Part shown: piece by piece, positions 2,664 through 60,571 of the stretch
Layout of the letters: each line of letters opens with the position of its first letter
How positions within the stretch are numbered: position 1 is the stretch's first letter
Source: Mycolicibacterium tusciae JS617
GTDB lineage: Bacteria > Actinomycetota > Actinomycetes > Mycobacteriales > Mycobacteriaceae
Length of the DNA: 64,000 nt
Assembly (NCBI RefSeq): GCF_000243415.2
Contig: NZ_AGJJ02000003.1
Span: forward strand, 124,001 to 188,000
Direction: 5' to 3'
Program-made: the position numbers and the translations under genes
The notes under the pieces: generated by a model
Databases searched by the model: none
What the model saw: the letters and a program-made list of their open reading frames with translations, nothing else
Told to the model about the DNA's origin: nothing

Positions 2664-3699
2664 TGTCGGCTGTGGTCGCCGCGATCAGATCGGCGTTGAT
2701 CGTTTCAGCACCGGACGTGATGGCCAGATAGCTGACCCGGTCGAGGAGGTTGGTCAGCGAAGCGATTCTGCCTTGGGTGCGGCGATGCAATTCCTTGGCG
2801 TGGTCAACCAGCATGCCCGGCTGTGCATCGGCGAGTTTGATATGGGTCTCCAGTACGCGAAGCAGGCTGATCCAGCCGCGGAAGCTGGCGTCGGGCTCGA
2901 GGGCGAACGGTGCGACCTTGCATCGGGTCGCGCGTCGGCTGGTCTGCGCGTACGCGGCTTGCTCCCCGAGGAGGCCCTCATCGAAGAAGCGCTTTTCCTG
3001 CAGCTTCACACCGACGTAGATGAACGTCACGGCCATCTCGTTGGCCAGGCCCTTGAGATGATTGGAGACCTCGGCACCGTGCCGATGACGGAAGTCGATG
3101 AAGTGGAGATCGTCAATGACGATCAGCCGGGTTTGGCAGCTGGTGACGCAATCGACCGCCAGAGCCCCGAGCTTGGACGTGGATGCTCGGTCGACGGCGG
3201 GGTGCCCGTAGAAGCGCAGGATCTGCTGATTGAGACCCTTGAGGGTGATACCCGCGCTGAGAGGAACGAACGCAACCGGTAGGCGCTGATGGCCCTCGGA
3301 GGTCTGCGGGCCATCACGTCGATACACCTTCTGGTGAAAGTCTCGCGCGTAGCGGGTGGCGATCGTCGTCTTGCCCAGCCCGGGCTCGGCATCGATGACG
3401 ACCGAGCCGCGCAGGCGGTCGCTGTCACGGCGATTCGACGCCATCACCTGATCGATAACGCCGTACGCGGCTTTGAGCTGGGCGGTCTTGACGGTGGGGA
3501 GGTTGGCGTTCCAGACCATCCGTGCTTCGTTGTAGTCCTCCAGCTGGTCAGCAGGCAGCGCATCCATCTGCTGACGACTGATGACCTCGAAATCATCGCG
3601 CGGACCCGAACTCACGAACGCGTTCCAGCCCTGCTTGCGCGACAACTGGTAGCGTGCGCTGTCGTTCGTCGACAACCATCGGGCCCACGGGTTCGTCAT
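2632..3699 (-). CDS. tnsC: TnsC/TniB-like AAA+ transposition regulator
   Basis: 355 aa. Walker A is EPGLGKTT (residues 105-112, Lys110) and Walker B is RLIVIDDLHFID (191-202). In the family this ATPase bridges target selector (TniQ) and transposase (TnsA/TnsB) and enforces target immunity. The frame is open further upstream, but that extension is antisense-like Arg-rich sequence overlapping tnsB. The ATG at 3699 overlaps the tnsB stop as ATGA, the standard junction in this operon, so I use it. Confidence 0.85.
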   Translation of the reverse strand: MTNPWARWLSTNDSARYQLSRKQGWNAFVSSGPRDDFEVISRQQMDALPADQLEDYNEARMVWNANLPTVKTAQLKAAYGVIDQVMASNRRDSDRLRGSVVIDAEPGLGKTTIATRYARDFHQKVYRRDGPQTSEGHQRLPVAFVPLSAGITLKGLNQQILRFYGHPAVDRASTSKLGALAVDCVTSCQTRLIVIDDLHFIDFRHRHGAEVSNHLKGLANEMAVTFIYVGVKLQEKRFFDEGLLGEQAAYAQTSRRATRCKVAPFALEPDASFRGWISLLRVLETHIKLADAQPGMLVDHAKELHRRTQGRIASLTNLLDRVSYLAITSGAETINADLIAATTADNAAQVSSSAT

Positions 3700-5747
3700 T
3701 CGCGGAATACCTCGAAAGCCTCTTCGCCGGGGTTCTCTTCGTAGTAGCGCTCGAAGACGTCGTCGAGATCGTCGGTTATCCGGGCAGATGTCTGTTGGCG
3801 TCGCGCAACGAGATCGATGACTGCTGGTACCGAGGCAGCCGTGCGGTCGTCTTGGTCGTGGGTGTCCTCGGCCAGTGACTGGGCATGGGCAGCGCGCGTA
3901 GCGGCGATGCGTTTGGCAAGAGCGCGGTCTCGCCGGGTCATGACCGCATCGCGGCTCCACTCCTCCAACAGATCGTGAACTGCCTGGGAGGGGTCGATGT
4001 GGCGATTCTGGCGGACGCTCACGCCCTTGGCGTAGTCGGCGGCGTCCTGGCCGAACGGACCGAGCAAGGCAGCGGCGTGATCCCAGTCCAGGCGGTGCCA
4101 CTCGGTGGTGTCGGGGTTTCTGAAGTGAATGAACCGCACGTCGTGGTTGTCGATGCTGAAGGGCCAGCGACCCGCGTGCTTGCCGCCGTACGGAGATCGG
4201 CATCCGCGGAAACCGTTCAAGCCCTCGCCGTCGTAGATGCGTCCGTTGACCTCCACGCCGTAGTGCTGGATGGTGCGCCACTCGACGTCGAGGAACTCGT
4301 AGGCCAAGTCGCGCCGAGTCGGCAGCGTCAAAGCACCGGAGCGAGCCAAACCTATCTCCCACATTTCGGCGGGAGAGAAATTGCCGGGGCCCAGCTCCGG
4401 CACGCACAACCCGCGGTGTTTGGTGCGGTGATATACCGAACCGACCCACTCGCGGATGATCTGTTCGAGTTCTCCGACGTAGTAGAACGCCTGGCCTTCG
4501 ACGTCCTTGCCGCGCGAGTAGACGTCTTGGCCCTTGTATGCCGGAAGGTGTTGCAACAGTGACTGTCTCAAGGTGAGGAAGAAGCGTTCGATCGTTGGTT
4601 TGTCCGTCGGTTTGTTCGGGATTGCCGGTTGGATCGAGATGCCGAATCGGGCACATACCCCGATGACATGAGCCGAGAGGTACTGGCGGCCGTGGTCGAC
4701 AACGATGGTCTCCGGAACAAGACCCGGACGATGATTGGGTGCCGAATCAGTGATGGCGCTGATGTCTTCGAAGCCCACTAGAACAGTTTTTGGTATGCCG
4801 TGGAATGGCCACACGCACTGCTCGCTGTCGTCGATTCCGAATTGCTGAGTGACCGACTGATAAAGCACGTTCGCGACGTCTTGCGACTTGGTCGATACCG
4901 GCATCAAGCGCAGGCCCAGAACGCAGCGGGTGTAAAGATCCATAGCGACGGTGAGCTCAACCGGAACCCATCGCAGGGTCACCGGCTCCATCGCGAAAAC
5001 GTCGAGGGGAGTGGTGTCCAAGACGACGTATTCGCCTGGCCGGGTCGCTCTGAGTCGACCGTACGGGCCTGCGGGGCGACCGGCGGCTGACCGACGTGCC
5101 TTGGCGCTGCCGAACGTGTATAACCCTTTTGAGTTTGCTGCAACTCGCCGGTAGGCGGCAGAGCGCGAAGGTAGCGCGACGGCGCCGCCGTACTCCGCCT
5201 CGACGGCTCGATGTGTCGCGTCGATCGCAGCGCCGCGCGTCGGTGTCGAGGCGTTCGTGAAACTGCGAAGCACGCGCTTGAGCGTTGTCTCCCAACGGGG
5301 ATCAACCTGTGGTGCCCGCTTTCGGGTCAGCCTCGAATCTGCAAGACCGGCGACGCCCGACTGGCTGTAACTCTGTATCCACCGGCGCAGGGTCTTTGTC
5401 GAGACGGATAGCTCGGCCGCTTTGTGTTGGATAGCGCGGCCTCGATCGCCCTTGCGGGGGCATGGGTCGTCGAGAACTGATCGCACGGCGTCGGCACGGC
5501 GTTCAAGTTCGGCGAACGCAGTTGAATCGAGCATCCCCAGGACGACGGGCACCAGTTCGCGGTCCTGCGGGCTCGGCGAAGGCTCCACTATTGGCTGGGC
5601 ATACCTCGCCAATGTGGCAATTGTGGCGGTGCGGATTGACTGCCCCGACGACAAGGTGACGCTACCGCGACCGAACTCGGTAATGGTCCAGACGTCACCG
5701 TCGAACCACAGTTGGCTACCGAGCGCCAATTCAACCGCGGCGGTCAC
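3696..5747 (-). CDS. tnsB: TnsB-like DDE transposase
   Basis: 683 aa. Residues about 100-200 hold helix-turn-helix DNA-binding segments (STKTLRRWIQSYSQSGVAGL and a following one). The RNase H-fold core has D244 (YVVLDTTPLDVF), D351 (TIVVDHGRQY) and E387 (KPTIERFF), a complete DDE triad, followed by a Mu-transposase-like C-terminal barrel. It cuts the 3' ends of the element and joins them to target DNA. Start and stop overlap tnsA and tnsC by 4 nt (ATGA) on both sides. All catalytic residues are present, so the protein looks functional. Confidence 0.9.
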   Translation of the reverse strand: MTAAVELALGSQLWFDGDVWTITEFGRGSVTLSSGQSIRTATIATLARYAQPIVEPSPSPQDRELVPVVLGMLDSTAFAELERRADAVRSVLDDPCPRKGDRGRAIQHKAAELSVSTKTLRRWIQSYSQSGVAGLADSRLTRKRAPQVDPRWETTLKRVLRSFTNASTPTRGAAIDATHRAVEAEYGGAVALPSRSAAYRRVAANSKGLYTFGSAKARRSAAGRPAGPYGRLRATRPGEYVVLDTTPLDVFAMEPVTLRWVPVELTVAMDLYTRCVLGLRLMPVSTKSQDVANVLYQSVTQQFGIDDSEQCVWPFHGIPKTVLVGFEDISAITDSAPNHRPGLVPETIVVDHGRQYLSAHVIGVCARFGISIQPAIPNKPTDKPTIERFFLTLRQSLLQHLPAYKGQDVYSRGKDVEGQAFYYVGELEQIIREWVGSVYHRTKHRGLCVPELGPGNFSPAEMWEIGLARSGALTLPTRRDLAYEFLDVEWRTIQHYGVEVNGRIYDGEGLNGFRGCRSPYGGKHAGRWPFSIDNHDVRFIHFRNPDTTEWHRLDWDHAAALLGPFGQDAADYAKGVSVRQNRHIDPSQAVHDLLEEWSRDAVMTRRDRALAKRIAATRAAHAQSLAEDTHDQDDRTAASVPAVIDLVARRQQTSARITDDLDDVFERYYEENPGEEAFEVFRE

Positions 5748-6475
5748 GATCGAACTCCAATTTCAACAACCGAATTGGAACTCAGCGGCCGTGTCAGATC
5801 CGCCCGGAGTTCATGGTGCCAAAGCAGCCACAGCACCGCTCTACGGGCCGCCCAGCGAGGCTGTTTCGTCGCGGATTCCAATTGGCCGAACGTCAGCCCA
5901 GGACGAATGGCAGATCGGACTGCGGCGACGGTCGTCTCGTCGACGAATTCGCTTCGCCTGCCTGCTGCAATCTGGCGGATGTTGGCGAGCACAATTGGAT
6001 CTGCGCCAGTCCACACCTCGTACCTCCAGCACTGCGATGCGCAGACCCGCGAGGTCCATTCAAAGACAGCCGCAACCTTGGGATGCGTCACCAAGTCCGC
6101 GGGCTTGACGTCCACCACCACGAAGCTGCCGTCGCTGCGGCTCAGCAGAAGATCCGGGACGTGACGGCGGGCCGCGCCGTCGTCATCGCCCACAAGCCAC
6201 AGAGGCTGAGTCGCGATGCCGACGACTTCCGGATCAAAATCGGCCATCAGCAACCGGTCACGTTCCAGAAGGCTCTCGTACTTCAGGTGGGTCCTTGTGG
6301 TCACCGACCAGAACAAGCCTGGATAGTGCTTCTGACCCGCGAATGACCGGATTGGGCGGACAGGCAGCCCTTGAACAACCGACGACAGCCGGACATTCCC
6401 GACAGTCGTCGAGCGCTCGTCTCCGTCAGAGGACACATAGTGACATTGCGTCCCGCTGAGCTGGCCCTGGCCCAC
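5744..6475 (-). CDS. tnsA: TnsA-like heteromeric transposase endonuclease subunit
   Basis: 243 aa, PD-(D/E)xK nuclease of the actinobacterial TnsA-like type. Visible features are the FAGQKHYPGLFWSVT block, YESLLERDRL (candidate catalytic Glu67 or Glu71), VPDLLL (Asp108) and VVVDVKP (Asp122, Lys124). It nicks the 5' ends of the element so that transposition is cut-and-paste. The first about 35 residues are not conserved-looking; the true start may be further in. It is the first gene of the operon and lies closest to the putative right end, as tnsA does in Tn7. Confidence 0.85.
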   Translation of the reverse strand: MGQGQLSGTQCHYVSSDGDERSTTVGNVRLSSVVQGLPVRPIRSFAGQKHYPGLFWSVTTRTHLKYESLLERDRLLMADFDPEVVGIATQPLWLVGDDDGAARRHVPDLLLSRSDGSFVVVDVKPADLVTHPKVAAVFEWTSRVCASQCWRYEVWTGADPIVLANIRQIAAGRRSEFVDETTVAAVRSAIRPGLTFGQLESATKQPRWAARRAVLWLLWHHELRADLTRPLSSNSVVEIGVRS

Positions 6476-22665: not shown

Positions 22666-22753
22666 GGGTCCGGTAACCGCACACCTGCGGATCGCCGACC
22701 TGCGCGAATAACAGAAAATAACGGGTGTCCGACCTTGACGTTACTGTGGGGGA

Positions 22754-24046
22754 ATGTTGAATACCCCCGCATTCGGCGAGTTCGTCAAAGAGGCCCGCGG
22801 AGCCCGCTCCCAGGCCGACCTGGCCGACAAGGCCGACACCTTCCGCCAACGATTCGGCCAGATCGAAAGTGGACAACCCCACGACCTGACCGACTCCGCG
22901 CTCGCGCAGCTCGACGCCGCTTTCGAGTGGCCCACCGACTTCGCGCAATCCGCTCTGCGCGCCACCCTGAACGACGAGCATCCCGTCACCTACAAGCCCT
23001 ACGAAGCCTCCGACTGGGACCCCTGCCGCCTCGGGTACTTCGCCGACGGGTCGGTCCTCATCAGCGTCAACAGGATCGCGTCGACCGCCCCCGCAGCTGC
23101 TTTCTTCCCCATGATCGTTGCGGCCCGCCGGACAACGCTCATCGACATCCGCGCCCTCGACGACGACGAACGCTTGTCTCTTGGCCGACTGGCCGGCCAG
23201 TGGAGTGGCATCACCAACGACTCCGGCCGCGCCGTCTGCGCCGTCGCCGCCCACCCCGACTCGGGCGACCATCGTTGGACCCCCGTCGCCATCGATCCTC
23301 TGCCCGGCATCACCAGCCTCAGCCAGGCACTCACGCTGACCCGCCGCCTGCGCCCCATCGTCGGACGAAATTTCGCCGCCGACGACGACATGGCGGTCGC
23401 CTTGACACTGCTGGCCGCCGCGATCGACCTCGGCGACACTTTAGACAAGCTCGACACCCCCAATGGGATCGCCCTGCTCGCTCGCCCGCACGGCCCCTCA
23501 ACGGCCAACTGGTCCAGACTGCTGGAGATCGCCGGACTGCCTCCGCACCGCTACCGCCAGGCCGACCTCACCCGAGTGTTCCGCGGCCTGTTCGACGCCC
23601 GAGACGCCCTCATCGACATCGCCTACGACCCCGGCGCACCAACACCGATCTCCATGCTCAGGCAGCCCGACGTCGTTGCCGCCCAGGACCTCAGCGGCTC
23701 TCTGCTGCTGTTCGACTCTCACCTCACGCCAGAGCTGCCCGTAGTTGTGCACGCCGCCCTGGCCGCCGCCGGCCACCCACTACCGATCGTCATCAGCACC
23801 GAAGTCGCCAGCCTCTTATCCGACGACTTCACCGGCCTGGCCATCGACATCAACAACATCGCCACGCCGTTGCCCACCGGTTCGGGCTGGCTATGGCAGT
23901 GGCGCACTGGCGACCTGCCGTACGCCACGATCACCAACTACGACAGCACCACTCGCCGCGCCGTCTACACCGAGCGCGGCCTGTCGCACGGCATCGACCT
24001 GCCCAACCCGTACCCGGTGTCAGTCCCGGCCGGGACAATGCCCTGA
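22754..24046 (+). CDS. HTH (XRE-like) N-domain protein, 430 aa
   Basis: Residues 5-45 (FGEFVKEARGARSQADLADKADTFRQRFGQIESGQ) form a lambda-repressor-like helix-turn-helix; the other 380 residues are unrecognised alpha/beta sequence. Resembles large actinobacterial regulators with a ligand or enzyme domain. Upstream TTGACG at 22735 may be a -35 element, giving a very short leader. The next gene's ATG overlaps its TGA. Confidence 0.65.
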   Translation: MLNTPAFGEFVKEARGARSQADLADKADTFRQRFGQIESGQPHDLTDSALAQLDAAFEWPTDFAQSALRATLNDEHPVTYKPYEASDWDPCRLGYFADGSVLISVNRIASTAPAAAFFPMIVAARRTTLIDIRALDDDERLSLGRLAGQWSGITNDSGRAVCAVAAHPDSGDHRWTPVAIDPLPGITSLSQALTLTRRLRPIVGRNFAADDDMAVALTLLAAAIDLGDTLDKLDTPNGIALLARPHGPSTANWSRLLEIAGLPPHRYRQADLTRVFRGLFDARDALIDIAYDPGAPTPISMLRQPDVVAAQDLSGSLLLFDSHLTPELPVVVHAALAAAGHPLPIVISTEVASLLSDDFTGLAIDINNIATPLPTGSGWLWQWRTGDLPYATITNYDSTTRRAVYTERGLSHGIDLPNPYPVSVPAGTMP

Positions 24047-24360
24047 TGACCGCTGACGCCCACCCCCACCACACCGTGCAGAAGCCGCGGCGGCGCACCG
24101 AGCCGGTCGAGATCGCCGACTTCACGATGCTGGTGCGGGTGCCGGGCCGACCCGACGCGATCCGCGCATTCACCGACGCAGAAGACACCGAGGCCCACCA
24201 GTACGCCGCCGAAACAGGCGGAACCGTTGTCCCGCTACCACTTCCACCACCGAACGGCTACACCGTCGGCCCTGACGGCAATCTGATACCAGCACTGCCA
24301 CCAACCTGCGCCGGCATGGCCGACACCCCGAGCCCGATCGCCGATACCCCCGGCGCGTGA
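24046..24360 (+). CDS. Hypothetical 104-aa protein
   Basis: Starts with a His/Arg-rich stretch, then a compact beta-rich part (VEIADFTMLVRVPGRPDAIRAF) and a Pro-rich tail. TGATG overlap with the HTH gene, so one operon. Its stop codon lies inside palindrome copy 2, which is unusual. Function unknown. Confidence 0.6.
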   Translation: MTADAHPHHTVQKPRRRTEPVEIADFTMLVRVPGRPDAIRAFTDAEDTEAHQYAAETGGTVVPLPLPPPNGYTVGPDGNLIPALPPTCAGMADTPSPIADTPGA

Positions 24361-25434: not shown

Positions 25435-25692
25435 GTGCCCACAGCTCGCCGGCGCCACGCCATCACCGAAACCGATGAGATCGCCCAGGCGCTCGACGCG
25501 GCCCGCCGTACATGGCCACACCTCGCCGACAAACCTGGCGAGCTGTTGCGCCAGCTGATCCTGACCGGCGAACACGCACTCACCGACGCCACCGAGAAGC
25601 GCCTGCAGGCGATCGCCTCCACCAGCGGCATGTTCCCCGAGGCCTTCCCAGCCGGATACCTCGACGACCTCCGCCAGGACTGGCCCGAATGA
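25435..25692 (+). CDS. VapB-like antitoxin
   Basis: 85 aa. Helical antitoxin-like sequence (RRRHAITETDEIAQALDAARRTWPHLADKPGELLRQLILTGEHAL) with an acidic, Trp-containing C-terminus that would bind the toxin. GTG start, leaderless; stop overlaps the PIN toxin ATG (ATGA). Identity rests on position and length as much as sequence. Confidence 0.75.
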   Translation: MPTARRRHAITETDEIAQALDAARRTWPHLADKPGELLRQLILTGEHALTDATEKRLQAIASTSGMFPEAFPAGYLDDLRQDWPE

Positions 25693-26075
25693 TCGTCCTC
25701 GACGCCAGCGTGCTGATCGCCCACTTCCAGCCCGCCGACCCCCACCACTCCCGGGCGAGCCGACTCCTCGCCGAACACCATCACCACCAATTCGTCGTCA
25801 ACACCATCACATTGGCTGAGGTCCTCGTAGGCCCAGCCCGCGTCGGGCAAACTGACGCGTTCCGCCAAGCACTCGACACCCTGGCGATCCAGACCCACGG
25901 CCTCGACGCGAACGCCGCCGTACCCCTGGCCGAGCTGCGCGCGCAGACGGGACTCAAGCTGCCCGACTGCTGCGTGCTCTACACCGCTGAACGTCAAAAC
26001 GACTGCCTCATCGCCTCATTCGACGTCCGGCTGAATACGCAGGCGCAACGCCTCCAGATCAGCACCGTCAACTGA
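25689..26075 (+). CDS. vapC: VapC-family PIN ribonuclease toxin
   Basis: 128 aa. PIN residues: D5 (IVLDASVLIAHF), E43 (TLAEVLVGP), D97 (KLPDCCVLYTA) and D115 (ASFDVRL). Full length with all acidic residues, so probably active. Second of the three VapBC pairs in the window and not close in sequence to the first. Confidence 0.85.
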   Translation: MIVLDASVLIAHFQPADPHHSRASRLLAEHHHHQFVVNTITLAEVLVGPARVGQTDAFRQALDTLAIQTHGLDANAAVPLAELRAQTGLKLPDCCVLYTAERQNDCLIASFDVRLNTQAQRLQISTVN

Positions 26076-26114
26076 TCGCCCAAGATGTCGCACCCCGGCC
26101 CTACAGTTCCGGAC

Positions 26115-27593
26115 ATGGACGTCGAGCTACGCGCGTACCGGTTCGCGCTCGACCTCACGCCCGCTCAGGAACAGCAGGTCCGCCAGCACGCCGGCGCCGC
26201 CCGCTGGGCATACAACCACGCCCTGGCCGCCAAGTTCGCCGCGCTCGACGAGCGTCGGGCCACCATCGCCGCGCTCGTCGAGCAGGGCGTGGACCCGAAA
26301 GCCGCTGCCGCGCAGGCCCCGCGGATCCCGACGAAGCCGGCCATCCAGAAAGCCCTCAACGCCACCAAGGGCGATGACCGGACCGGCGCCGACGGCCCCT
26401 GCCCGTGGTGGCACAGCGTCTCCACCTACGCATTCCAATCCGCGTTCGCCGACGCCGACACCGCCTGGGGCAACTGGCTTTCTTCGGTCACAGGCGGCCG
26501 CGGCGGTCAACGGGTCGGTAAGCCGCGGTTTAAGAGCAAGCACCGCTCCCGCGACTCGTTCCGAATCCACCACGACGTCCGCAACCCCCGGATACGGCCC
26601 GACGCCGGGTACCGCCGAATCATCGTGCCCCGCCTCGGATCCCTACGCCTGCACGAATCCACCAAACGGCTCTGCAAGGCCATCGACCGCGGCGCAGTCA
26701 TCCAATCCGTCACCATCAGCCGCGGCGGCCACCGCTGGTACGCCAGCATCCTCACCAAGGCCCCCGCATCCACAGCCACCCCATCCCGGCGCCAACGCGC
26801 AGCCGGCACAGTCGGCGTCGACGCCGGCGTCCACCACCTGGCCGCCCTCTCCACCGGCGACCTCATCGACAACCCACGACACCTCAACCACGCCCGCACC
26901 CGACTCACCAAGGCCCAGCGCGCACTGGCCCGCACGAAGAAAGGCTCCACGCGGCGCCGTCGCGCAGCTGCCCGCGCCGGCCGGGTCCACCACCACATCG
27001 CCGAACAGCGCGCCACCACGCTGCACACCCTCACCAAACGCCTCGCCACAGGATGGGCGACCGTGGCGATCGAAGACCTCAACGTCGCCGGCATGACCCG
27101 CTCAGCCCGCGGCACCGTCGAAAAGCCCGGCACGAACGTCCGCGCGAAATCCGGGCTCAACCGCTCGATCCTCGACGCATCGCCTGGCGAACTCCGCAGG
27201 CAACTCACCTACAAGACTCGCTGGTACGGATCCGCCCTCGCGCTCTGCGATCGCTGGTATCCCTCCAGCCAGACATGCTCGACATGCGGCGCGAGATCCA
27301 AGCTCCGCCTGTCCCAGCGTGTGTTCCACTGCGCAGCGTGCGACCTCAAGCTCGATCGAGACGTCAACGCCGCGATCAACGTCGCCACGCACGCCGTGGT
27401 GGCCGTCGCCTCCGACACCGGGGAGACGCAAAACGCCCGCCGAGACCCGCCGCCCACCCCCGCACCAGCGGGACCACAGCGCCAGGTCACCGACGCGGGA
27501 AGACCACACCGCACCGGTGCGGCCACCTCAGCCGAGCAATCGGCTGATCACCTCAAAACAACCGACCAGGCCCCATTAACCCTGGTCAGCTAG
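26115..27593 (+). CDS. tnpB: TnpB-family RNA-guided nuclease (possible Cas12n/V-U-like)
   Basis: 492 aa from ATG 26115. N-terminal wedge/REC part with RYAFxLdLT-type opening and RWAYNHALA, then PRFKSKHRSRDSFRI. Split RuvC with D236 (GVDAGVHHLA), E320 (VAIEDLNVAGM) and D414/D416 (LDRDVNAAIN); zinc ribbon CSTCG (388-392) and CAAC (406-409). All catalytic residues are present. After residue 430 a Pro/Ala tail coincides with where the guide RNA of TnpB loci lies. No TnpA (Y1 or serine recombinase) is adjacent; instead 29-nt repeats start 2 nt after the stop. So it may be a stand-alone TnpB or a TnpB-like type V effector. Confidence 0.85.
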   Translation: MDVELRAYRFALDLTPAQEQQVRQHAGAARWAYNHALAAKFAALDERRATIAALVEQGVDPKAAAAQAPRIPTKPAIQKALNATKGDDRTGADGPCPWWHSVSTYAFQSAFADADTAWGNWLSSVTGGRGGQRVGKPRFKSKHRSRDSFRIHHDVRNPRIRPDAGYRRIIVPRLGSLRLHESTKRLCKAIDRGAVIQSVTISRGGHRWYASILTKAPASTATPSRRQRAAGTVGVDAGVHHLAALSTGDLIDNPRHLNHARTRLTKAQRALARTKKGSTRRRRAAARAGRVHHHIAEQRATTLHTLTKRLATGWATVAIEDLNVAGMTRSARGTVEKPGTNVRAKSGLNRSILDASPGELRRQLTYKTRWYGSALALCDRWYPSSQTCSTCGARSKLRLSQRVFHCAACDLKLDRDVNAAINVATHAVVAVASDTGETQNARRDPPPTPAPAGPQRQVTDAGRPHRTGAATSAEQSADHLKTTDQAPLTLVS

Positions 27594-27594
27594 T

Positions 27595-27916
27595 GTGCGC
27601 TCCGCACGCGCAGAGGCGAGTCCTCCTCATCAGCGTCAACAACAACAAACAACAACAGGATCGCTTCGACCGTGCGCTCCGCACACGCAGAGGCGAGTCC
27701 CGCTTAGTGTCACTAGTGCTGCGCTGGGCAGACGGTTGAGTGCGCTCCGCACACGCAGAGGCGAGTCCCGAAGCTCGCGGGCTGCGGCCGGTGCCCGCCC
27801 CCCGCGCACAGAGGTGGGTCCTCCAGTGCAAGCCCCCAAGGCGCCAAGCCGCGCAAGCCACCACCCAGCCCGCCAGCCCGTCTCGGGGGAGCGCCCGCGC
27901 GCACAGACGCGAGCCC
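27595..27916 (+). CRISPR. Five CRISPR-like direct repeats, irregular spacing, no cas genes
   Basis: Three near-identical 29-nt repeats begin GTGCGCTCC and end GGCGAGTCC: 27595-27623, 27672-27700 and 27740-27768 (copies 2 and 3 identical, copy 1 differs by one base). Two degenerate ones follow at 27791-27821 and 27889-27916. The inner CTCCGC...GCAGAG can form a stem, as in type I-E and V-U repeats. Gaps are 48, 39, 22 and 67 nt, unlike a healthy array. Spacer-like gaps differ from each other. No cas1, cas2 or Cascade gene is in the window; the only candidate effector is the TnpB gene 2 nt upstream. Confidence 0.45.
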
Positions 27917-28037: not shown

Positions 28038-28562
28038 ATGGGTGCACAGACCACCGTGAAGATCCAGATGGATCAGCTGGAGTCCGCAGCGGGCAAAGCC
28101 GGGCAGACACTGACGGGCAGCACGATCCCGCCGATTCCGCCGCCGCCCCCTGCGGCGATGTCGCAGCTTGATGCTGCCCTGGCGCTGGTGTCCACGCAGG
28201 GCGAAGTGCTGCGGACCAAGGTCGACACGCTGGACTCCACGTGGGCGACCAAGCAGCAGGCAGCGCTGATCGAGGGTCCACCGGTGCTGCAGCAGCAGGA
28301 CGTCGCAGGTGCCCAGGACATGGAGCGCAGTAGCGAGTTCCCGATGCCGCAGGTCAAGCCCCCGGTCGGCCCGTCTGACCCGACCGGTGTGCAGCCCGCG
28401 AGCTTCGGATCTTCCCCGGTCCCGGAGAACGGACCGTGGGGCCTGGAGGACGGTGAGTGGGAGCTTGACGAGTGGGGGACACCCCAGCCGGTATGGCCCG
28501 ACTTCGGCGGTGGTGGCGCCGGACCAGGGTCTGGTGTTTCCGGCGGCGTAGCGCCAATCTAG
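28038..28562 (+). CDS. Helical Pro-rich protein, ESX-substrate-like
   Basis: 174 aa. Residues 1-85 form two helices separated by a Pro loop (TTVKIQMDQLESAAGKAGQTL, then AMSQLDAALALVSTQGEVLRTK) with VDTLDSTW, reminiscent of the helical-hairpin proteins secreted by or associated with type VII systems; the C-terminal 80 residues are Pro/Gly/Trp-rich. No signal peptide. First gene of a four-gene envelope operon. Family assignment is inference. Confidence 0.55.
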   Translation: MGAQTTVKIQMDQLESAAGKAGQTLTGSTIPPIPPPPPAAMSQLDAALALVSTQGEVLRTKVDTLDSTWATKQQAALIEGPPVLQQQDVAGAQDMERSSEFPMPQVKPPVGPSDPTGVQPASFGSSPVPENGPWGLEDGEWELDEWGTPQPVWPDFGGGGAGPGSGVSGGVAPI

Positions 28563-28595: not shown

Positions 28596-29210
28596 ATGTC
28601 GTCGATCGCGCCGCCCCCGGCATACCCGACGTGGCCTCCGCAGCAGCCGTACCCACCGGCGCCGCAGAAGCCCCGCCGGCGCTGGCCCGCGATCGCAGCC
28701 GCCGCAGGCGTCGGCGCACTCGCGGCCGGCCTGATCACCACCCTGATCACCATCGCCGTCACCCCCGGAACCACCACCGCGGCCGCTCCGGCGCCTCCCA
28801 CCGTCACCGAGACCGCAGGACCGCCGCCCCCACCCGCAGCGCTGCCAGCCGCCCAGGCGGACGCACAGACCTGCCACGCATGGGGAACCGCGACCACCTT
28901 GGTGACCGCGGGAACGGCGGCCATGAAGGTCATCCCGGACGGCACGGACATCACCAGCCCCGCGGTTCAGGGCAACCCGTCCTGGAAGTCGTCAGTTGGC
29001 CGCGCTAGCGGTCTGTTCGGCCAAGCGGCGGACACGTTCGAGTCGCAAATCGCGCCCGGCACCAGCTCCTCGCTTGCCGGAGTTGCGGACACAACGGTTA
29101 GTTCCCTACGCACGCTCTCCGAGGCCTACCGGTCCTTCGACCCTGCAAGCGGCAACTCAGTTGCGGTTTTCCGAACAAGCCAGCAAGCGATGGATTGGCT
29201 TTGCCGATGA
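28596..29210 (+). CDS. Single-pass membrane protein, Pro-rich cytoplasmic tail
   Basis: 204 aa. Pro-rich N-terminus (PPPAYPTWPPQQPYPPAP), Arg cluster, membrane helix about 32-55, Thr/Pro linker, then an extracellular helical domain with QADAQTCHAWGTA and a final Cys, which may form a disulfide. The next gene is a clear paralogue with the same architecture; its ATG overlaps this stop (ATGA). Confidence 0.7.
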   Translation: MSSIAPPPAYPTWPPQQPYPPAPQKPRRRWPAIAAAAGVGALAAGLITTLITIAVTPGTTTAAAPAPPTVTETAGPPPPPAALPAAQADAQTCHAWGTATTLVTAGTAAMKVIPDGTDITSPAVQGNPSWKSSVGRASGLFGQAADTFESQIAPGTSSSLAGVADTTVSSLRTLSEAYRSFDPASGNSVAVFRTSQQAMDWLCR

Positions 29211-29893: not shown

Positions 29894-32344
29894 GTGGCTT
29901 TTGGTGAGGTCATGATGCCGGCGACCGAGCATTCGGCAGAGATTCTTGCTGGGTCGTGGCCGGCGCAGAGCGTGATGTCTTGGTCCGGGTATGCGATGGA
30001 TTACTCGCAGGCCGCCAATCGGCTGTTCAAAGAGCTGGACACTCAGGCGGACATCAAGGACATTCTCGGCCCGATGGAGGGCGCCTTTATCGACTCCGCT
30101 CGGGGCTTGGCGATGGGCCGAGAGACGGCCCTGCAGAATCGAATTGAGGCCTATCGACACATCTCGAAAAAGGCGCACTGGGCGGCCAACGAGTTGCATT
30201 CCACGAAGTCCGATCTCGTCGAGATCGTGAAGCAGGCCGAGGAGAACATCAAAACCTCGCGCGAGAACGCCGAGAAAGCTAAGGCTTTGGCGCGCGCCAA
30301 CCCGCTCGCTGGGGAGCCGGCGGTCGCGGCCATCGAGAGCCAGCTGCAGAGCGCCATTGCGGCGATCGTCGCGCTGGCCAAGTCGAATGCGATGGCACGG
30401 GATTCGCAGGGCGCGGGAACCGTGACAGCTCTGTCGACTGACATCTCCCAGTGGGCGGCGCCCTTCGCCAATCACGTCCTCCCGCAGTCGGGTGGCATCC
30501 CGGACATGGGTGGCCTGCCGGCGGCGCCGGCGCCGCCCGTGCCCGCATCGCCGGGAGGGATCAAGCCAGTTGACTACACCAGCACTGGGGATAACCTCCG
30601 GCAAGCTGGTGGCACTGACACCGCCCAGAACGCGTCCAACAACACTCAAGGCCAGCCCGAGAACAACGTCCAACAGACGGCTTTCAAGCAGCCCGACAAG
30701 ATCGAGCCTCATGAAGCCGGAAAGCCGCAGACCTCGTCCCCTCCAGCTTCGGCTCCGTCGTCGCCGTCTCCGAGTTCTGCTGGTAGCAGCAGTAATCCGA
30801 GTTCGGTGTTGGGTCAGATGATGAAGCCGGCGTCGTCGGGGAGTTCGTCGTCTTCTCCTGCTTCGTCTTCGTCTTCGTCGGCGTCGAGTAGTGCATCGAG
30901 TCCTGCTTCGGCGTCGCAGTCGAGTCAGATGGCTAATGCGAACGGTGCGAATGCCGGGGCGGGGACGGGCGCTGGCGCGAACGCTGCGGCGAATGCTGCT
31001 GGGCGGGGGCCGGGTATGGCGAGCTTGGGGTCGGGGATCGCAGACACGTCGGCGAAGATGGCTTCGGGTGCGGTCAACGCAGCCAGTAACGCGGTGAGCA
31101 CCGCCACCAATGTTGGCTCCAATGTGGCGCAGAACGTGGTGCAGGCGGCCGCTCAGGCGCCGGCCGCGGCGTCTCCTGCTGCCGCGGCGACGGCGCCGGC
31201 TTCGGTCGGTGGTGCTCCGGTCAGTGGTGGGGCGCCGATGGGCATGATGCCGGCAGCTCCTGCCGGTGGTGTGGGGCCGGTGAACCCGGTGACCTCCGGT
31301 GGTGGCGCGCCTTCAGCTCCGGCCGCGACGCCGACGTCGCCGGCTGCGGGCCCGGTCGGTGGTGGTGTGCCGCAGGCGAGCGCGGCTGGGGCGGCGGGTT
31401 CAACGTTGGCGCCGGTGGCGGTGCCGCACTCGTCGATACGCGGGATTGGTGCCGACGGCGCTACGGGGGACGTGATTTTCGATCAGGCGATGGACGCCGG
31501 CCAGGACGTCATCAAGGCCCTGGTGGCGCAGACCCTGGGCACGGGCTATATCGACATTCACTATGCGGTGTCGCTGATTTGGGAGCGTGGCGGCACGATC
31601 ACGGCGTGGATGGCCACCAGCGAGGGTGCGTCCTACATCCCGCTGGGTGTGCGTGTCCCGCACGATGTTCGGCTGTCGATTACGGATCCGATCATCGGCC
31701 ACGAACTGACCAAGACCTCATCCGAAGCCGGCGGCGCGAACCCGCTGGAGGTTGTGGTGCGCCAGGCCGAGGCCCGCGAGCAGGCGGCCCCCGGCTCGCG
31801 GGTGCTGGCGCTGGCGTCGTCGTTGCCGATGGACCGGGTGATGGACTGGGCCGGGGTTGTCGGTGCGCGGCCTGTCAGCGTGAATCCGAAAGAGGTTGGT
31901 CGGACCACGGGTCCCGATATGTCAATGCTGCATCGGTGCGCGGTCGCGATGCCGTGGGAGTGGCGGCAGGCCAGCGCATTCAGCGAGGAGGACCGGCTGC
32001 GGGTGGCGGCGCGTCACATGCACATGGCGGCCAACGCCGGGCACCTGGGCGGCGGCGCGGCTGAGCGTGTGATCGAGTTGTTCGAGGAGCGCCAGCCGAT
32101 CCCGGAGGCGTTGTGGGCGGATGTTGCTAAGCAGCGGTTCATGGCGTTGATCGGGTACCAGATGGCGATGAGTAACGCCGGCCAGGGTGGCGCGGAGCCG
32201 CCGGCGCGGCTTCTCGCGTCGGCGCGCGCTGCTGAGGTTGTGCTGTGCCTTCGGGACTATGGGAGCGCGGAGGGTTGCGCGGATCTGCTGTATGCGTCGA
32301 GGTTGGCGGGCGCTCCGCTGAGCCCGGCGGCCGCTGTCGCGTAA
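29894..32344 (+). CDS. Large ESX-associated-type protein (DUF5631/DUF5632-like)
   Basis: 816 aa. N-terminal about 200 residues helical (SWSGYAMDYSQAANRLFKEL...), middle 200-500 Pro/Ser/Ala-rich and low complexity, C-terminal about 510-816 a folded region (GDVIFDQAMDAGQDVIKALVAQTL..., WERGGTITAWMATSEGASYIP, RHMHMAANAGHLGGGAAERVIELF). The layout resembles mycobacterial Rv3899c-type proteins found beside ESX loci; this is from memory and unverified. GTG start; ATGs 18 and 21 nt later are alternatives. The last 349 bp recur at 33437-33785. Confidence 0.65.
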   Translation: MAFGEVMMPATEHSAEILAGSWPAQSVMSWSGYAMDYSQAANRLFKELDTQADIKDILGPMEGAFIDSARGLAMGRETALQNRIEAYRHISKKAHWAANELHSTKSDLVEIVKQAEENIKTSRENAEKAKALARANPLAGEPAVAAIESQLQSAIAAIVALAKSNAMARDSQGAGTVTALSTDISQWAAPFANHVLPQSGGIPDMGGLPAAPAPPVPASPGGIKPVDYTSTGDNLRQAGGTDTAQNASNNTQGQPENNVQQTAFKQPDKIEPHEAGKPQTSSPPASAPSSPSPSSAGSSSNPSSVLGQMMKPASSGSSSSSPASSSSSSASSSASSPASASQSSQMANANGANAGAGTGAGANAAANAAGRGPGMASLGSGIADTSAKMASGAVNAASNAVSTATNVGSNVAQNVVQAAAQAPAAASPAAAATAPASVGGAPVSGGAPMGMMPAAPAGGVGPVNPVTSGGGAPSAPAATPTSPAAGPVGGGVPQASAAGAAGSTLAPVAVPHSSIRGIGADGATGDVIFDQAMDAGQDVIKALVAQTLGTGYIDIHYAVSLIWERGGTITAWMATSEGASYIPLGVRVPHDVRLSITDPIIGHELTKTSSEAGGANPLEVVVRQAEAREQAAPGSRVLALASSLPMDRVMDWAGVVGARPVSVNPKEVGRTTGPDMSMLHRCAVAMPWEWRQASAFSEEDRLRVAARHMHMAANAGHLGGGAAERVIELFEERQPIPEALWADVAKQRFMALIGYQMAMSNAGQGGAEPPARLLASARAAEVVLCLRDYGSAEGCADLLYASRLAGAPLSPAAAVA
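31996..32344 (+). repeat. Direct repeat A, 349 bp (copy in place)
   Basis: 3' end of the 816-aa gene, including its stop. Repeated 1441 bp downstream with about five base changes and no gap. Confidence 0.9.
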
Positions 32345-32382: not shown

Positions 32383-33318
32383 GTGGATACCGCCAGGATC
32401 AAAGGGGTCGAGCCGCCGATCCACATAGCTGCGCAGGAACTGCGCGCGTGGCGTCCAGACGAGGTGAAGGCCACCGAGTTTTCCTGTATCGGGTGCACGG
32501 CCGATGTGCACCCGAAGGCCTACGAGATGAATCGGCGTGTCCAGGCGCATTTCTCGCTGTATAGATTCCGTTCTCCTCATGACGCCGGCTGTTCGGAGGG
32601 GCCGCTTGCCGCGGCCGCGACCAGCAGTAGCGACGAAGCGGACAACGAGATCCCTACCGTGGCGTGTTGGCCGACCCGATTGGTCGAGACGCCGATGCAA
32701 CGCAAAGTCGTCGACCCCGATGCCGCACTCCCCGCGGCAGTCGATCGACGCAACAGCACACGCAGCGTTGGCGTGGGTAAGGGTGGCGGTGGTCGGCCCT
32801 CAGCGTCGGCGCGGGCGTATTCGATCCGCCCGTTCGCGCACGCGTTCTCACGGATGAACAGAGGACAGCGGGAGCGGGAGCCGATTGTGCTGCCGGGCGT
32901 GGACGCCAATCGATACGCCTTTGCTTTTAAGCGGTTGCCGCAGTGGACCATTGAGCCGCTCAAGTATCCGCTTCGGGTGTTCTATGGGCAGCTGCGGTGG
33001 GCTGCTGATGTCGACGACACGGGCAGCGAGTTCCGGATCCCGTTGCATGCCGGCGAGTGGGACTCTGAGCAGAAGCGGTTTGCGCGGACCTGGGAGTTGC
33101 GGGTTGATCACACCGGGTGGGCGACACGGGCGCGCGCCGCCTTTCTCAACGAGCTGGAATCCGCCAAAAACCAGGCCCGCGATGAAGGTAAGCAGCCCTG
33201 GTTTTTCGCGTTGACCGCTCAGCGTCGGGGTGAGCCGGGTGTGATCGAGACGGGGGACCGTCGCTTGGTGGCGTTCTTTCCGCTGACCGACGCGGAGGCT
33301 GCGCGTCTGGCCCGATGA
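32383..33318 (+). CDS. Hypothetical 311-aa protein with CoiA-type zinc motif
   Basis: N-terminal FSCIGCTADVHPKAYEMNRR...AHFSLYRF...HDAGC has the Cys/His spacing of the N-terminal zinc part of CoiA-like proteins; no nuclease core is evident. The C-terminal half (RVFYGQLRWAADV, DRRLVAFFPLTDAEAARLAR) may be an independent domain. GTG start chosen because the upstream frame is antisense-like within the previous gene. A decayed copy of its 3' end lies at 34289-34350. Confidence 0.55.
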   Translation: MDTARIKGVEPPIHIAAQELRAWRPDEVKATEFSCIGCTADVHPKAYEMNRRVQAHFSLYRFRSPHDAGCSEGPLAAAATSSSDEADNEIPTVACWPTRLVETPMQRKVVDPDAALPAAVDRRNSTRSVGVGKGGGGRPSASARAYSIRPFAHAFSRMNRGQREREPIVLPGVDANRYAFAFKRLPQWTIEPLKYPLRVFYGQLRWAADVDDTGSEFRIPLHAGEWDSEQKRFARTWELRVDHTGWATRARAAFLNELESAKNQARDEGKQPWFFALTAQRRGEPGVIETGDRRLVAFFPLTDAEAARLAR

Positions 33319-33428
33319 CGGACACGTGTACCGCACATTGTGTCACTAACATGCGCTACCGCGGGCGTCTGCGGCATTTGTGGCAAGAAGGTGCGATACG
33401 GGGTGGCCGGCGCATAGCTATGAAATCG
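33228..33428 (+). repeat. Direct repeat B, left copy
   Basis: 3' end of the 311-aa gene, the intergenic DNA and what would be the fic start (ATG changed to ACG, early stop). Matches 34289-34489 at a constant offset of 1061 bp without gaps over most of its length. Confidence 0.75.
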
Positions 33429-33785
33429 GTCCACGAGCTGCGGGTGGCGGCGCGTCACATGCACATGGCGGCCAACGCCGGGCACCTGGGCGGCGGCGCG
33501 GCTGAGCGTGTGATCGAGTTGTTCGAGGAGCGCCAGCCGATCCCGGAGGCGTTGTGGGCGGATGTTGCTAAGCAGCGGTTCATGGCGTTGATCGGGTACC
33601 AGATGGCGATGAGTAACGCCGGCCAGGGTGGCGCGGAGCCGCCGGCACGGCTTCTCGCGTCGGCGCGCGCTGCTGAGGTTGTGCTGTGCCTTCGGGACTA
33701 TGGGAGCGCGGAGGGTTGCGCGGATCTGCTGTATGCGTCGCGGTTGGCGGGTGCTCCGCTGAGCCCGGCGGCGGCCGTCGCGTAA
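33420..33785 (+). CDS. Free-standing C-terminal domain copy, 121 aa
   Basis: ATG 33420 gives MKSVHELR, then the last 115 residues of the 816-aa protein almost unchanged (VAARHMHMAANAGHLGGGAA...PLSPAAAVA). It sits behind a duplicated copy of the fic promoter region. Either a new, expressed solo domain or a passive remnant. The near-absence of changes suggests a recent event or selection. Confidence 0.65.
   Translation: MKSVHELRVAARHMHMAANAGHLGGGAAERVIELFEERQPIPEALWADVAKQRFMALIGYQMAMSNAGQGGAEPPARLLASARAAEVVLCLRDYGSAEGCADLLYASRLAGAPLSPAAAVA
33437..33785 (+). repeat. Direct repeat A, second copy
   Basis: Copy of 31996-32344. The sequence before 33437 is unrelated to the original context, so the left breakpoint is sharp. 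Confidence 0.9.
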
Positions 33786-58345: not shown

Positions 58346-58531
58346 CGCTCCACCGCCGTAATGTGTATAGAGAGAGTTTCAGAGGCGTTGTTTAGACGAG
58401 TATCATAACGTAGGATTTGGGCTGGTCGAAGGTGCTGGCTGGGGGGCCTGCATCGGGGTTTCGACGGCTGGTTTTTGCATCCACACCCCCACCCGCCCGT
58501 TGCAACCCCTTCCTTGCCTTGGAGGCCTTTC

Positions 58532-60571
58532 ATGGAACTATCCGCCCGCTCATATCTGAATGCCGGCATCGCGTTGACCGCTGCCAGCGCCATCGCCCTG
58601 ACCCCGGTTGTCGTCTCGCCCAACAACGCTCTTCATCTCCCGGTGCCGCACATCTCGACCTCGCAGGTCCAGCTCGCGGCCGCAATCAACCCCGCCGACG
58701 TCGCCGCCCTGGTGAGCAATCTCAATGCCGCCATGGGCTCGGTCACCTCCACGGTGTCCTCCCTGGTCGACAACTCCGGCCAGACCCTGGCTGGCGCCCT
58801 GAATTCCGCAGCGGGACTGAACAACACGCTGTGGGACGGTCTGATTCGCGCGGCCGGCGCAAACCCCACGCTCGCGTCGGTGATGATCGCGCTCAAGGCC
58901 GCCTCTGCCGGCGGGCTGTCGCAGCTGGCGGCGTCAGTCGACGCCGCCGGCGGCACCATCGCCTTGTCCAGCGGCCAGGTGGCCGGCCTGCTGACCTCCA
59001 CCGTCACCGGGTCCTTGGGTTCGGCCATGCAGGCGGTCACCAGCATCGTCAACGATCCGCTGTCCGCGGCGAGCTACCTGGGGCTGCTGACGACCCCGTT
59101 CGGCATCGCCGGCATGGCCCTGCAGGGCGGCATCAACGCAGTGGCAACCCTGGCCACCGGTGGCGTTGAACTTGCCAGCACCCTGGTCACTGGCGTCACC
59201 GCGCAGATCGGCAACGCGTTGGCGCTGGTGAATGGTGTCCTCGACTCCGGCAAGTCGCTGACCGACATCGCCCTGATCGACGGCGCGCTGACCGCGGTGC
59301 AGGGCATCGTGTCCGCGCCCGTCGCGGCCGCCCTGGCTGGCGTCAACGGCATCACCGGCGCCGTCGCCGACGTCGCGACCTTCGCCCTGGGCGCGGTGGC
59401 CGGCGGCGCCAACGCCGTGGTGTCGACATGGCTGGGCGACGCCTCGTCCGCCGGCGCGCTGCAGAGGGCCATCGCGGCGATCGGCTCGGCGCCGCTGAGC
59501 CCGTCCAGCTACACCGACGCGATCGGGGTTCTCCTCGGCGCCGGGTTCTCGACGGTGAAGACGGTCGCCGGCACGGTCAGTTCGTTCGCGTCGCTGCCAT
59601 TCCGGGTCGGCGCGGACCTCACCAACACCGGTGCCGCGGTGATCACCTCGTTCACCAACGGGCTCGCCGACGCGGCCAGCGGCCTGCTGCACGCGGTTGG
59701 CCTGTCTCCGTTGATTTCCGGTCTGCCCCGAGTGCTGGCCGGCGCCTTCTCCGGCGCTGTGAAGGTGGCGGCGTTCACCACCTCGGCCGCGCTGAACACG
59801 ATCGCGGCAGCGATCGACTTCGGCCAGGCCGTCGGCGGGATCTTCGATCGGACCTCAGTGCTATCCGCGGCCGCGGCGGGCCCGGCGGCGCTTCCGGCCT
59901 CAGGGCTGCGCACCGCCCTGGTCAGCACCTCGACCGAACTCGGCGACGCCGAGGCCACCGGCGAGGCGGCATCACCTGAATCAGCGAAGGATGCCGGCTC
60001 CCCCGAAGTGGCCGACGTGACGACAGCGATCGCGCCGGCCGAAGCCGAGCCCGTCGCCACGGTCGTCGAACCCGCCGCCGAGGACACCCTGCCCGAGCAG
60101 ACTCCCAGCACTCCCGAGGTCACCGAAGCCGGTGACGAGCTGCCCTCCGCGGCCGCGGAGGACAGCGAGACCGTGAACGACGGCGCAGAGTCGACGCCGG
60201 CCCCCGCGGCAACCACTGTCGACAAGCCCACGGCCGCTGACAAGCCGGCGGCGGCTGACGAGGCTGCCGACAACGACACGGTGTCCGATACCGTCACCGC
60301 ACCCGCCAAGAGTGGTACCACTCCCAAAGCTGACCGGACGGAAAGCTCAACGGGGACAGGACATCACACGGCCAGCACCACGCGCGCGGGCACCAGCACA
60401 GACGCGGGTGCGGAGTCCTACGGCCGGCACGCCTCCGGCGCGACCGCATCTGAGTCCTCACCCACGGGTGGACGTCACCGCAGCGTCTCCACTGCGCGGG
60501 ACAGCTCATCTGCCGGGTCGACGAGCGGATCCGCCTCGCAGTCGACCAGCAGTGACCGCGCAGCGGCCTAG
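58532..60571 (+). CDS. Exported Ala/Gly-rich mycobacterial protein, 679 aa
   Basis: N-terminal signal or anchor (YLNAGIALTAASAIALTPVVV), then about 430 residues of Ala/Gly/Val/Leu-rich helical repeats with recurrent LxGxxxA patterns, then a 220-residue acidic, Pro/Thr/Ser-rich C-terminus. I recall similar MELSARSYL... proteins in several mycobacteria, of unknown function; not a PE or PPE protein, since the PE/PPE N-terminus is missing. GGAGG 7 nt before ATG 58532 sets the start. Confidence 0.65.
   Translation: MELSARSYLNAGIALTAASAIALTPVVVSPNNALHLPVPHISTSQVQLAAAINPADVAALVSNLNAAMGSVTSTVSSLVDNSGQTLAGALNSAAGLNNTLWDGLIRAAGANPTLASVMIALKAASAGGLSQLAASVDAAGGTIALSSGQVAGLLTSTVTGSLGSAMQAVTSIVNDPLSAASYLGLLTTPFGIAGMALQGGINAVATLATGGVELASTLVTGVTAQIGNALALVNGVLDSGKSLTDIALIDGALTAVQGIVSAPVAAALAGVNGITGAVADVATFALGAVAGGANAVVSTWLGDASSAGALQRAIAAIGSAPLSPSSYTDAIGVLLGAGFSTVKTVAGTVSSFASLPFRVGADLTNTGAAVITSFTNGLADAASGLLHAVGLSPLISGLPRVLAGAFSGAVKVAAFTTSAALNTIAAAIDFGQAVGGIFDRTSVLSAAAAGPAALPASGLRTALVSTSTELGDAEATGEAASPESAKDAGSPEVADVTTAIAPAEAEPVATVVEPAAEDTLPEQTPSTPEVTEAGDELPSAAAEDSETVNDGAESTPAPAATTVDKPTAADKPAAADEAADNDTVSDTVTAPAKSGTTPKADRTESSTGTGHHTASTTRAGTSTDAGAESYGRHASGATASESSPTGGRHRSVSTARDSSSAGSTSGSASQSTSSDRAAA

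Follow-up and report, generated by a model that had tools for sequence, protein, structure and literature searches.

Here, we describe a locus in a 64,000-nucleotide stretch of DNA from Mycolicibacterium tusciae JS617 (the window) whose 492-aa protein, judging from its sequence, is almost certainly an effector of subtype V-N (Cas12n, formerly V-U4/C2c9). We think it probable that this V-N locus sits on a plasmid-like element, excludes related plasmids, was fed with spacers in trans by a type I-E system and has partly decayed. This reading is built on membership of the Cas12n family, the covariation of repeats and anti-repeats, an architecture of 29-nt repeats and 32-nt spacers, spacers that match their own replicon and the absence of Cas1, all of which are observed. 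In the proposed mechanism one nuclease gene would also encode, at its 3' end, the scaffold of its guide RNA. The repeats would pair with the anti-repeat of this scaffold, and the spacers would then guide DNA cleavage. New spacers would not be made by the locus itself; type I-E Cas1-Cas2 may have supplied them in trans in some former host, drawing them from elements of the same kind, and the array in the window would since have decayed in part.

The effector and its place in the Cas12n family

The effector gene is located as follows.

26115..27593, + strand: cas12n (c2c9/V-U4) effector gene, 492 aa (open ORF, domains, profile scores, tree)

An alternative in-frame ATG at 26085, upstream of the cas12n start, would give a protein of 502 aa. 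The sequence-only reading had described a TnpB-family protein with intact catalytic residues, and the RuvC motifs VGVDAG (233), IEDLNV (319) and DRDVNAA (414) are indeed all present; the zinc ribbon CSTCG/CAAC is complete by motif check and alignment. The Pfam domains are OrfB_IS605, Cas12f1-like TNB and HTH_OrfB, and the NCBIfam model for IS607 TnpB scores 325.1, which is under its cut-off of 350. The PADLOC Cas12u4 model reaches 674.7 bits, and V-U4 is the best of the named V-U profiles. The same Cas12u4 profile gives 679.4 bits on the protein of Actinomadura craniellae, and 328 and 347 bits on two IS607 TnpB controls. A PADLOC model labelled Cas12f scores 703.3 bits on the window protein; the Cas12f and Cas12u4 models are also the top two for the A. 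craniellae protein, and thus the Cas12f label does not discriminate. The window protein is identical to this A. craniellae protein (P0105, 505 aa) at 287 of 493 positions (58%), and by species and length P0105 is presumably the published AcCas12n (506 aa). Pairwise comparison of cas12n with two relatives gave dN/dS values of 0.22 and 0.29, which describe the lineage and not only its latest evolutionary steps. The names given in public records are 'transposase' or 'TnpB family'.

Placed in a TnpB/Cas12 tree (49 of 50 rows; L010 was left out as too short), the effector groups with Cas12n and apart from the tested IS607 and Ktedonobacter-type TnpBs. All 30 rows labelled as having an array, the window included, fall into a single branch of 41 rows (support 99/96), which also holds 11 unlabelled rows and the A. 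craniellae protein. Outside this branch are the IS607 TnpB of Bifidobacterium (L220), six TnpBs from Ktedonobacterales and other bacteria, and the M. avium IS607 TnpB (L219), which has a long branch and an uncertain position. The window protein and the pMyong2 protein form a group (100/98) that is joined by three further mycobacterial loci (100/97). Arrays are present beside relatives down to about 40% identity. The array label, a judgement on degenerate arrays in the case of L022, L026, L085 and L088, changes 7 times on the tree; a single gain of the array followed by several losses would be a possible history.

The lack of a TnpA gene, noted from the sequence alone, was confirmed in so far as Pfam found no transposase in six neighbouring ORFs (22754-24043, 25435-25689, 25689-26072, 28038-28559, 28596-29207 and 29894-32341). 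The marks of an IS607/IS605 TnpB, namely grouping with TnpBs, a single guide at the element end and no array, do not describe this locus. As for membership in V-N, the array adjoins the effector and no cas1/cas2 lies at the locus, the absence being taken from the Cas1 search. Grouping and cognate array together support the comparison with type V-U effectors such as Cas12n that the sequence-only reading had made. Of the refuting outcomes listed with that reading, none of those open to computation occurred. It had also suggested that the locus may be a TnpB-to-Cas12 intermediate, an idea that the literature on Cas12n already contains and that is hence not new; Cas12n, its AAN PAM and a tracrRNA within the gene were known as well (both in PMC11641405, in excerpt). 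V-U loci have been described as TnpB homologues beside arrays that lack adaptation modules (PMC6452270, in excerpt), and TnpB is inferred to have become associated with arrays or adaptation modules about 50 times independently (PMC12669027, in excerpt). Cas12n is seen as an early stage on the way from transposon TnpB to CRISPR.

On the M. avium plasmid pP4-4a the Cas12n array is followed, within a few hundred bases, by an annotated IS607-family transposase (L005 6877-7470, corresponding to pP4-4a 58399-58992). It may be a trace of TnpB ancestry, or it may stand there by chance.

The guide scaffold and the array

The following features lie at the gene end and behind it.

27410..27594, + strand: predicted scaffold of the guide RNA (tracrRNA-like), which overlaps with the 3' end of cas12n, from its fold and the conserved hairpin; the 5' limit is a guess
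27529..27546, + strand: conserved 7-bp hairpin with GNRA tetraloop, from comparison with relatives
27547..27554, + strand: anti-repeat, pairing with GAGGCGA of the repeat with one C.A mismatch (helix score 4)
27595..27623, + strand: repeat 1, 29 nt, 1 mismatch
27624..27671, + strand: spacer 1, 48 nt, made up of 18 nt equal to 23055-23072, a 16-nt CAA-rich insert and 14 nt (13 identical) resembling 23073-23086
27672..27700, + strand: repeat 2, 29 nt, 0 mismatches
27701..27739, + strand: spacer 2, 39 nt, of which the first 22 nt have no other occurrence in the genome at up to 3 mismatches
27740..27768, + strand: repeat 3, 29 nt, 0 mismatches
27769..27790, + strand: spacer 3, about 22 nt, whose first 17 nt (18 if the final base of the repeat is included) equal the minus strand of 28391-28408
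27793..27821, + strand: degenerate repeat 4, from the array scan
27888..27916, + strand: degenerate repeat 5, from the array scan

The fold of 27410-27641 has a z of -5.2, and none of 200 shuffles was equally stable. Rfam gave no match at the gathering threshold in the window, and a promoter scan found nothing. In the loci compared a 7-bp GNRA hairpin lies near or at the gene end, and the next 10 nt or so are complementary to the 3' half of the repeat at that locus. In 28 loci the helix score of the loci's own repeat/anti-repeat pairs averages 6.48 against 4.47 for swapped pairs, and none of 2000 swaps reached the mean of the own pairs; L009 was retained in this set though its hairpin was probably wrongly chosen. 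Repeats that stay invariant among relatives had been named as a sign against the CRISPR reading, and the opposite was found: the repeats differ between relatives and co-vary with the anti-repeat in the gene, which indicates that the array belongs to the effector. Pairing of a scaffold from the effector gene with the repeat, as in V-N systems, is thus seen family-wide at the level of sequence, and in the window it is weak. The window score of 4, caused by one mismatch, is tied lowest of the 28 loci and lies below the swapped mean, and therefore the activity of the window copy is doubtful. A wholesale search for duplexes between repeats and upstream sequence was noisy and gave a clear signal only when anchored on the conserved hairpin. 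With the rule of hairpin plus anti-repeat, new members and their guides become predictable from sequence.

The three near-identical 29-nt repeats and two degenerate copies that had been reported are present (3 matches against 0.00 expected from 100 shuffles), and no further copy within 3 mismatches occurs elsewhere in the 7.3-Mb genome. Repeat 1 begins 1 nt past the stop codon, not 2 nt as first stated. From the reported gaps of 48, 39, 22 and 67 nt the first two hold, and the last two measure 22-24 and 66 nt depending on the register. The irregular gaps had been seen as the weak point of the CRISPR reading; they are largely explained by the 32-nt gaps of the family and the insert in spacer 1, with the 39- and 66-nt gaps left unaccounted for. 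Among the 124 gaps in 25 arrays of the Cas12n family, 85 are exactly 32 nt long and 103 fall within 31-33 nt. The A. craniellae locus (L032) has 9 repeats, with gaps of 32 nt in seven of eight cases and of 33 nt in one, and plasmid relatives from Micrococcus and Corynebacterium show 61-nt periods (5, 4 and 2 copies). Spacer 1 is a 32-nt spacer split by the 16-nt insert, as its 18 nt and 13 of its following 14 nt match the continuous stretch 23055-23086. The irregular gaps of the window hence look like decay of a unit of 29+32 nt. The pool behind these counts comprised 79 genome loci, 7 viral loci, two plasmid loci and the window, with L087 removed because it duplicates L014. The array scan covered 36 loci, mostly the nearer ones, and the 25 with usable repeats were kept, their repeat consensus and register being set by hand; L031, L033 and L034 were read by eye only.

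A side branch of Cas12n was seen in Streptomyces and Kitasatospora (L031, L033, L034, L035, L036 (about 4001-5940), with copies L225-L231). The three members read by eye have no downstream array, the third RuvC Asp motif D.NA is absent from all five in a simple motif search, and the scaffold hairpin is kept where it was read. There is a single repeat-like end, GACGATCC (GGCGATCC or GACGGTCC in some members), after which comes a conserved GTGTTCTGG[CG]AGA[TC]C. By its sequence this side branch looks like a nuclease-dead, single-guide regulator; a search for the target of its guide-like stretch found none. Cas12n relatives also lie on contigs classed as viral in IMG/VR (L085-L091), several with arrays of about 61-nt period, and L087 among them looks identical to the Kitasatospora chromosomal locus L014. 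Five Streptomyces plasmids (H66-H70) share with L014 a conserved stretch just past its last repeat, and a relative of the nuclease is present on two of these plasmids; this stretch is possibly an array boundary or an insertion site.

Spacers that match the own replicon, and the type I-E signature

The window is part of a contig of 218,299 bases in a genome of 7.3 Mb and four contigs. ESX genes of the EccB-, EccC- and MycP-like kinds lie on this contig, together with a kinase that shares 65% identity with a kinase of pP4-4a; a search of the contig with the relaxase, ParA and ParB of pP4-4a and with the ParA and replicase of pMyong2 gave no match. The separate 218-kb contig and the relatives of the locus suggest a plasmid-like element. 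Directly upstream of cas12n lie a small ORF (25435-25692, +, no Pfam family) and a gene for a PIN-domain protein (25689-26075, +), which by sequence are likely a VapBC pair with the PIN protein as toxin. A Tn7-like set on the minus strand (894-2663, 3699-5747 and 5744-6475) includes TniQ and an rve/HTH protein, with matches mostly under the Pfam cut-offs; its third ORF (5744-6475) may encode a candidate TniB-like ATPase. The C-terminal end of an 816-aa protein (29894-32344, +) recurs in a separate ORF of 156 aa (33315-33785, +).

Two spacers match places in the window.

23055..23086, + strand: protospacer-like match of spacer 1, within an uncharacterised gene (22754-24046, no Pfam family)
28391..28408, - strand: protospacer-like match of spacer 3, within the gene 28038-28562 (no Pfam family)

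Spacer 1 is identical to its own contig at 31 of 32 positions when the insert is excluded, and its 18-nt part occurs only once in the genome besides the array. The match of spacer 3 is short; it is unique besides the array, yet an overlapping 17-nt run recurs elsewhere on the contig. Such matches are enriched in the family. For 87 spacers from 13 arrays whose replicon sequence spans 15 kb or more, own-replicon matches outnumber foreign ones by 8 to 2 at 34 bits; the ratios are 6 to 1 at 36 bits and 4 to 0 at 38 bits. The foreign search space is 12.45 times larger than the own one (p ~4e-8 at 34 bits or more), so that the counts amount to a roughly 50-fold excess on the own replicon; spacer L025_3, a 29/29-nt match to its own 8.5-kb contig, stands outside this count. 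The own matches are concentrated, with 6 of 12 spacers in three replicons (the window contig, pMyong2 and pP4-4a), 0 of 12 at 34 bits in L006, L007, L008 and L010, and one each in L009 and L012. On pMyong2 and pP4-4a two spacers each match the own plasmid, their targets differ and the mismatches are scattered.

The flanks of the six own matches in the three replicons are AAC, AAC, AGC, ATC, AGT and CGG, with no AAG among them; the two in the window have CGG and ATC, that is, no AAN PAM. Two of the six keep AAN, and thus loss of the PAM alone cannot explain self-tolerance. The imperfect identities suggest that the donors of such spacers were relatives rather than the same element. Searches that in part scored a few candidates per genome, or covered about 3 kb of 2 of 130 records, brought to light no related plasmid whose protospacer is exact and has a PAM. 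Homologues of the target genes, sought in 401 family genomes each with a few best candidates per genome scored, were only the window's own copies, and 22700-24100 had no plasmid match; the donor plasmid was thus not found. The target region of pMyong2 matched pMyong2 only. In two mycobacterial plasmids whose backbones are related to that of pP4-4a, the roughly 3 kb read from each held no better protospacers for the tested pP4-4a and pMyong2 spacers. A phage origin of the window spacers, which had been considered, found no backing, as none of the first 34 spacers, the three of the window included, matched a phage at E 1. If the spacers come from elements of the same kind, the locus probably served the exclusion of related plasmids, and the own-plasmid spacers suggest competition among related plasmids as a selective reason for keeping the system.

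The form of the arrays points to type I-E. Compared with four I-E repeats from genomes of relatives (of five found; L099 was left out), 21 Cas12n repeats share a mean of 17.4 identities, against 11.5 +/- 0.3 when shuffled. From a total of 149 spacers, 121 were searched against plasmids and 94 against phages. Foreign plasmid matches at 30 or more of 32 positions were found for 7 of the 121, and AAG adjoins the protospacer in five of these seven in the best records (p ~1.6e-9), the other two having GAA and ATG; further records of spacers L020_2 and L020_4 have AGC and GCC flanks. The match set H66-H70 was excluded as a conserved stretch past the array, and H63 (29/32, E 0.2) and H64 (83%) were not counted. 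The phage search gave one match, to phage ZL12, with AGC beside the protospacer. In Streptomyces avermitilis the I-E system has 29-bp repeats, 32-bp protospacers and AAG (PMC4762764, in excerpt). From array dimensions, repeat type and PAM we therefore propose type I-E Cas1-Cas2 acting in trans, a proposal about spacer acquisition that is inferred from form. Cas1 and Cse1 gave no match in the genome of the window, and among 27 family genomes (two perhaps of the same strain) Cas1 matches occur in 7 and Cse1 matches in 9. An I-E signature mostly without I-E genes is compatible with use in trans or with a former host, and is no proof of either. A statement of this signature for Cas12n was not found in the literature searched, which did not extend to the founding Cas12n paper, and its novelty is thus not established. 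The signature across the family nevertheless names a concrete and testable donor of spacers for an effector without adaptation genes.

A bolder and more tentative version, to which we give somewhat less than even chances, is that the whole Cas12n family lives off I-E adaptation. The repeats would keep what Cas1-Cas2e needs (29 nt, a CCC..GGG core, 32-nt spacers, AAG), with the Cas6e stem mostly loosened for pairing with the scaffold. Plasmid-borne members would exclude kin plasmids and tolerate themselves through PAM loss, spacer mismatches or inserts.

Alternative readings and known systems

The locus might be a dead relic, its array gained accidentally from the host plasmid by naive I-E adaptation, self-targeting being lethal or neutral, and everything since decaying without function. 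The insert in spacer 1, the irregular gaps, the two degenerate repeats and the weak anti-repeat would all fit, and so would the own-plasmid spacers. Against this, the gene is open with its catalytic motifs intact, repeats 2 and 3 are identical, and dN/dS is 0.22-0.29 against two relatives, a measure that is lineage-wide and not confined to the last steps; we regard the relic as unlikely, though worth keeping in mind. Guides could also bind neighbouring genes uncut through 17-18 nt of identity and thereby control them. Binding without cutting has precedents in TldR-type and partial-match CRISPR regulation, two of the three good spacers start with 17-18 nt identical to neighbouring genes, and elsewhere Cas12n has a side branch that looks nuclease-dead, lacks the array and keeps one conserved guide-like stretch. 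However, the match of spacer 1 resumes beyond its insert, so that 18 nt is no designed length, and once this continuation was seen the idea of 18-nt matches as designed regulatory guides was largely dropped. The targets moreover lie inside genes, those of the other plasmids differ and have scattered mismatches, and the catalytic residues are intact, which makes such a regulator improbable.

Two further readings separate the array from the effector. An ordinary IS607/IS605 TnpB with repeats as accidental neighbours could appeal to the sub-cut-off NCBIfam name, to the names in public records and to the annotated IS607-family transposase after the array of the 72%-identical relative on pP4-4a. 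The tree, the profile scores, the arrays of relatives, the covariation with the anti-repeat and the lack of a transposase in the six scanned ORFs contradict it, and we consider it very improbable. That an orphan type I-E array, left from a lost Cascade, stands beside the gene by chance would agree with the I-E-like repeat length, spacer length and repeat motifs, but the position behind the gene is common to the 25 kept arrays, the repeats co-vary with the anti-repeat at the gene end, and Cse1 is without a match in 18 of the 27 family genomes (with the two perhaps identical strains). This reading is hardly credible.

A V-N locus that probably serves plasmid exclusion can be compared with several known systems. 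The A. craniellae Cas12n shares 58% identity, the scaffold at the 3' end, a downstream array and the lack of adaptation genes with the window, which differs in its short and worn array, a repeat 1 nt past the stop, a weaker anti-repeat and spacers that match its own contig. Type I-E arrays resemble those of the Cas12n family in their 29-nt repeats, 32-nt spacers and AAG PAM. The window's repeats are 29 nt long as well, but its gaps measure 48, 39 and 22-24 nt, and spacer 1 consists of 32 nt and an insert. Unlike type I-E, its genome gave no match to Cas1 or Cse1, and its repeat pairs with a Cas12n anti-repeat; in Cas12n repeats judged by eye the I-E stem is mostly loosened and kept in L009 and L024. 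Subtype V-M (Cas12m) is likewise a small Cas12 effector, enriched on plasmids and tied to inter-plasmid competition (PMC11656645, in excerpt). In Cas12m the RuvC-like domain is inactivated, whereas the window protein has three intact RuvC motifs and fits the V-U4 profile best. Comparable in the proposed biology is type IV-A3, which sets plasmid against plasmid with spacers acquired in trans (PMC11656645, in excerpt). In type IV-A several subunits form a class 1 complex that has a DinG helicase, while the locus in the window has one nuclease protein. If the bolder, family-wide version is true, plasmid-borne Cas12n loci would mirror the IV-A3 inter-plasmid conflict in class 2, by means of a nuclease and within about 2 kb.
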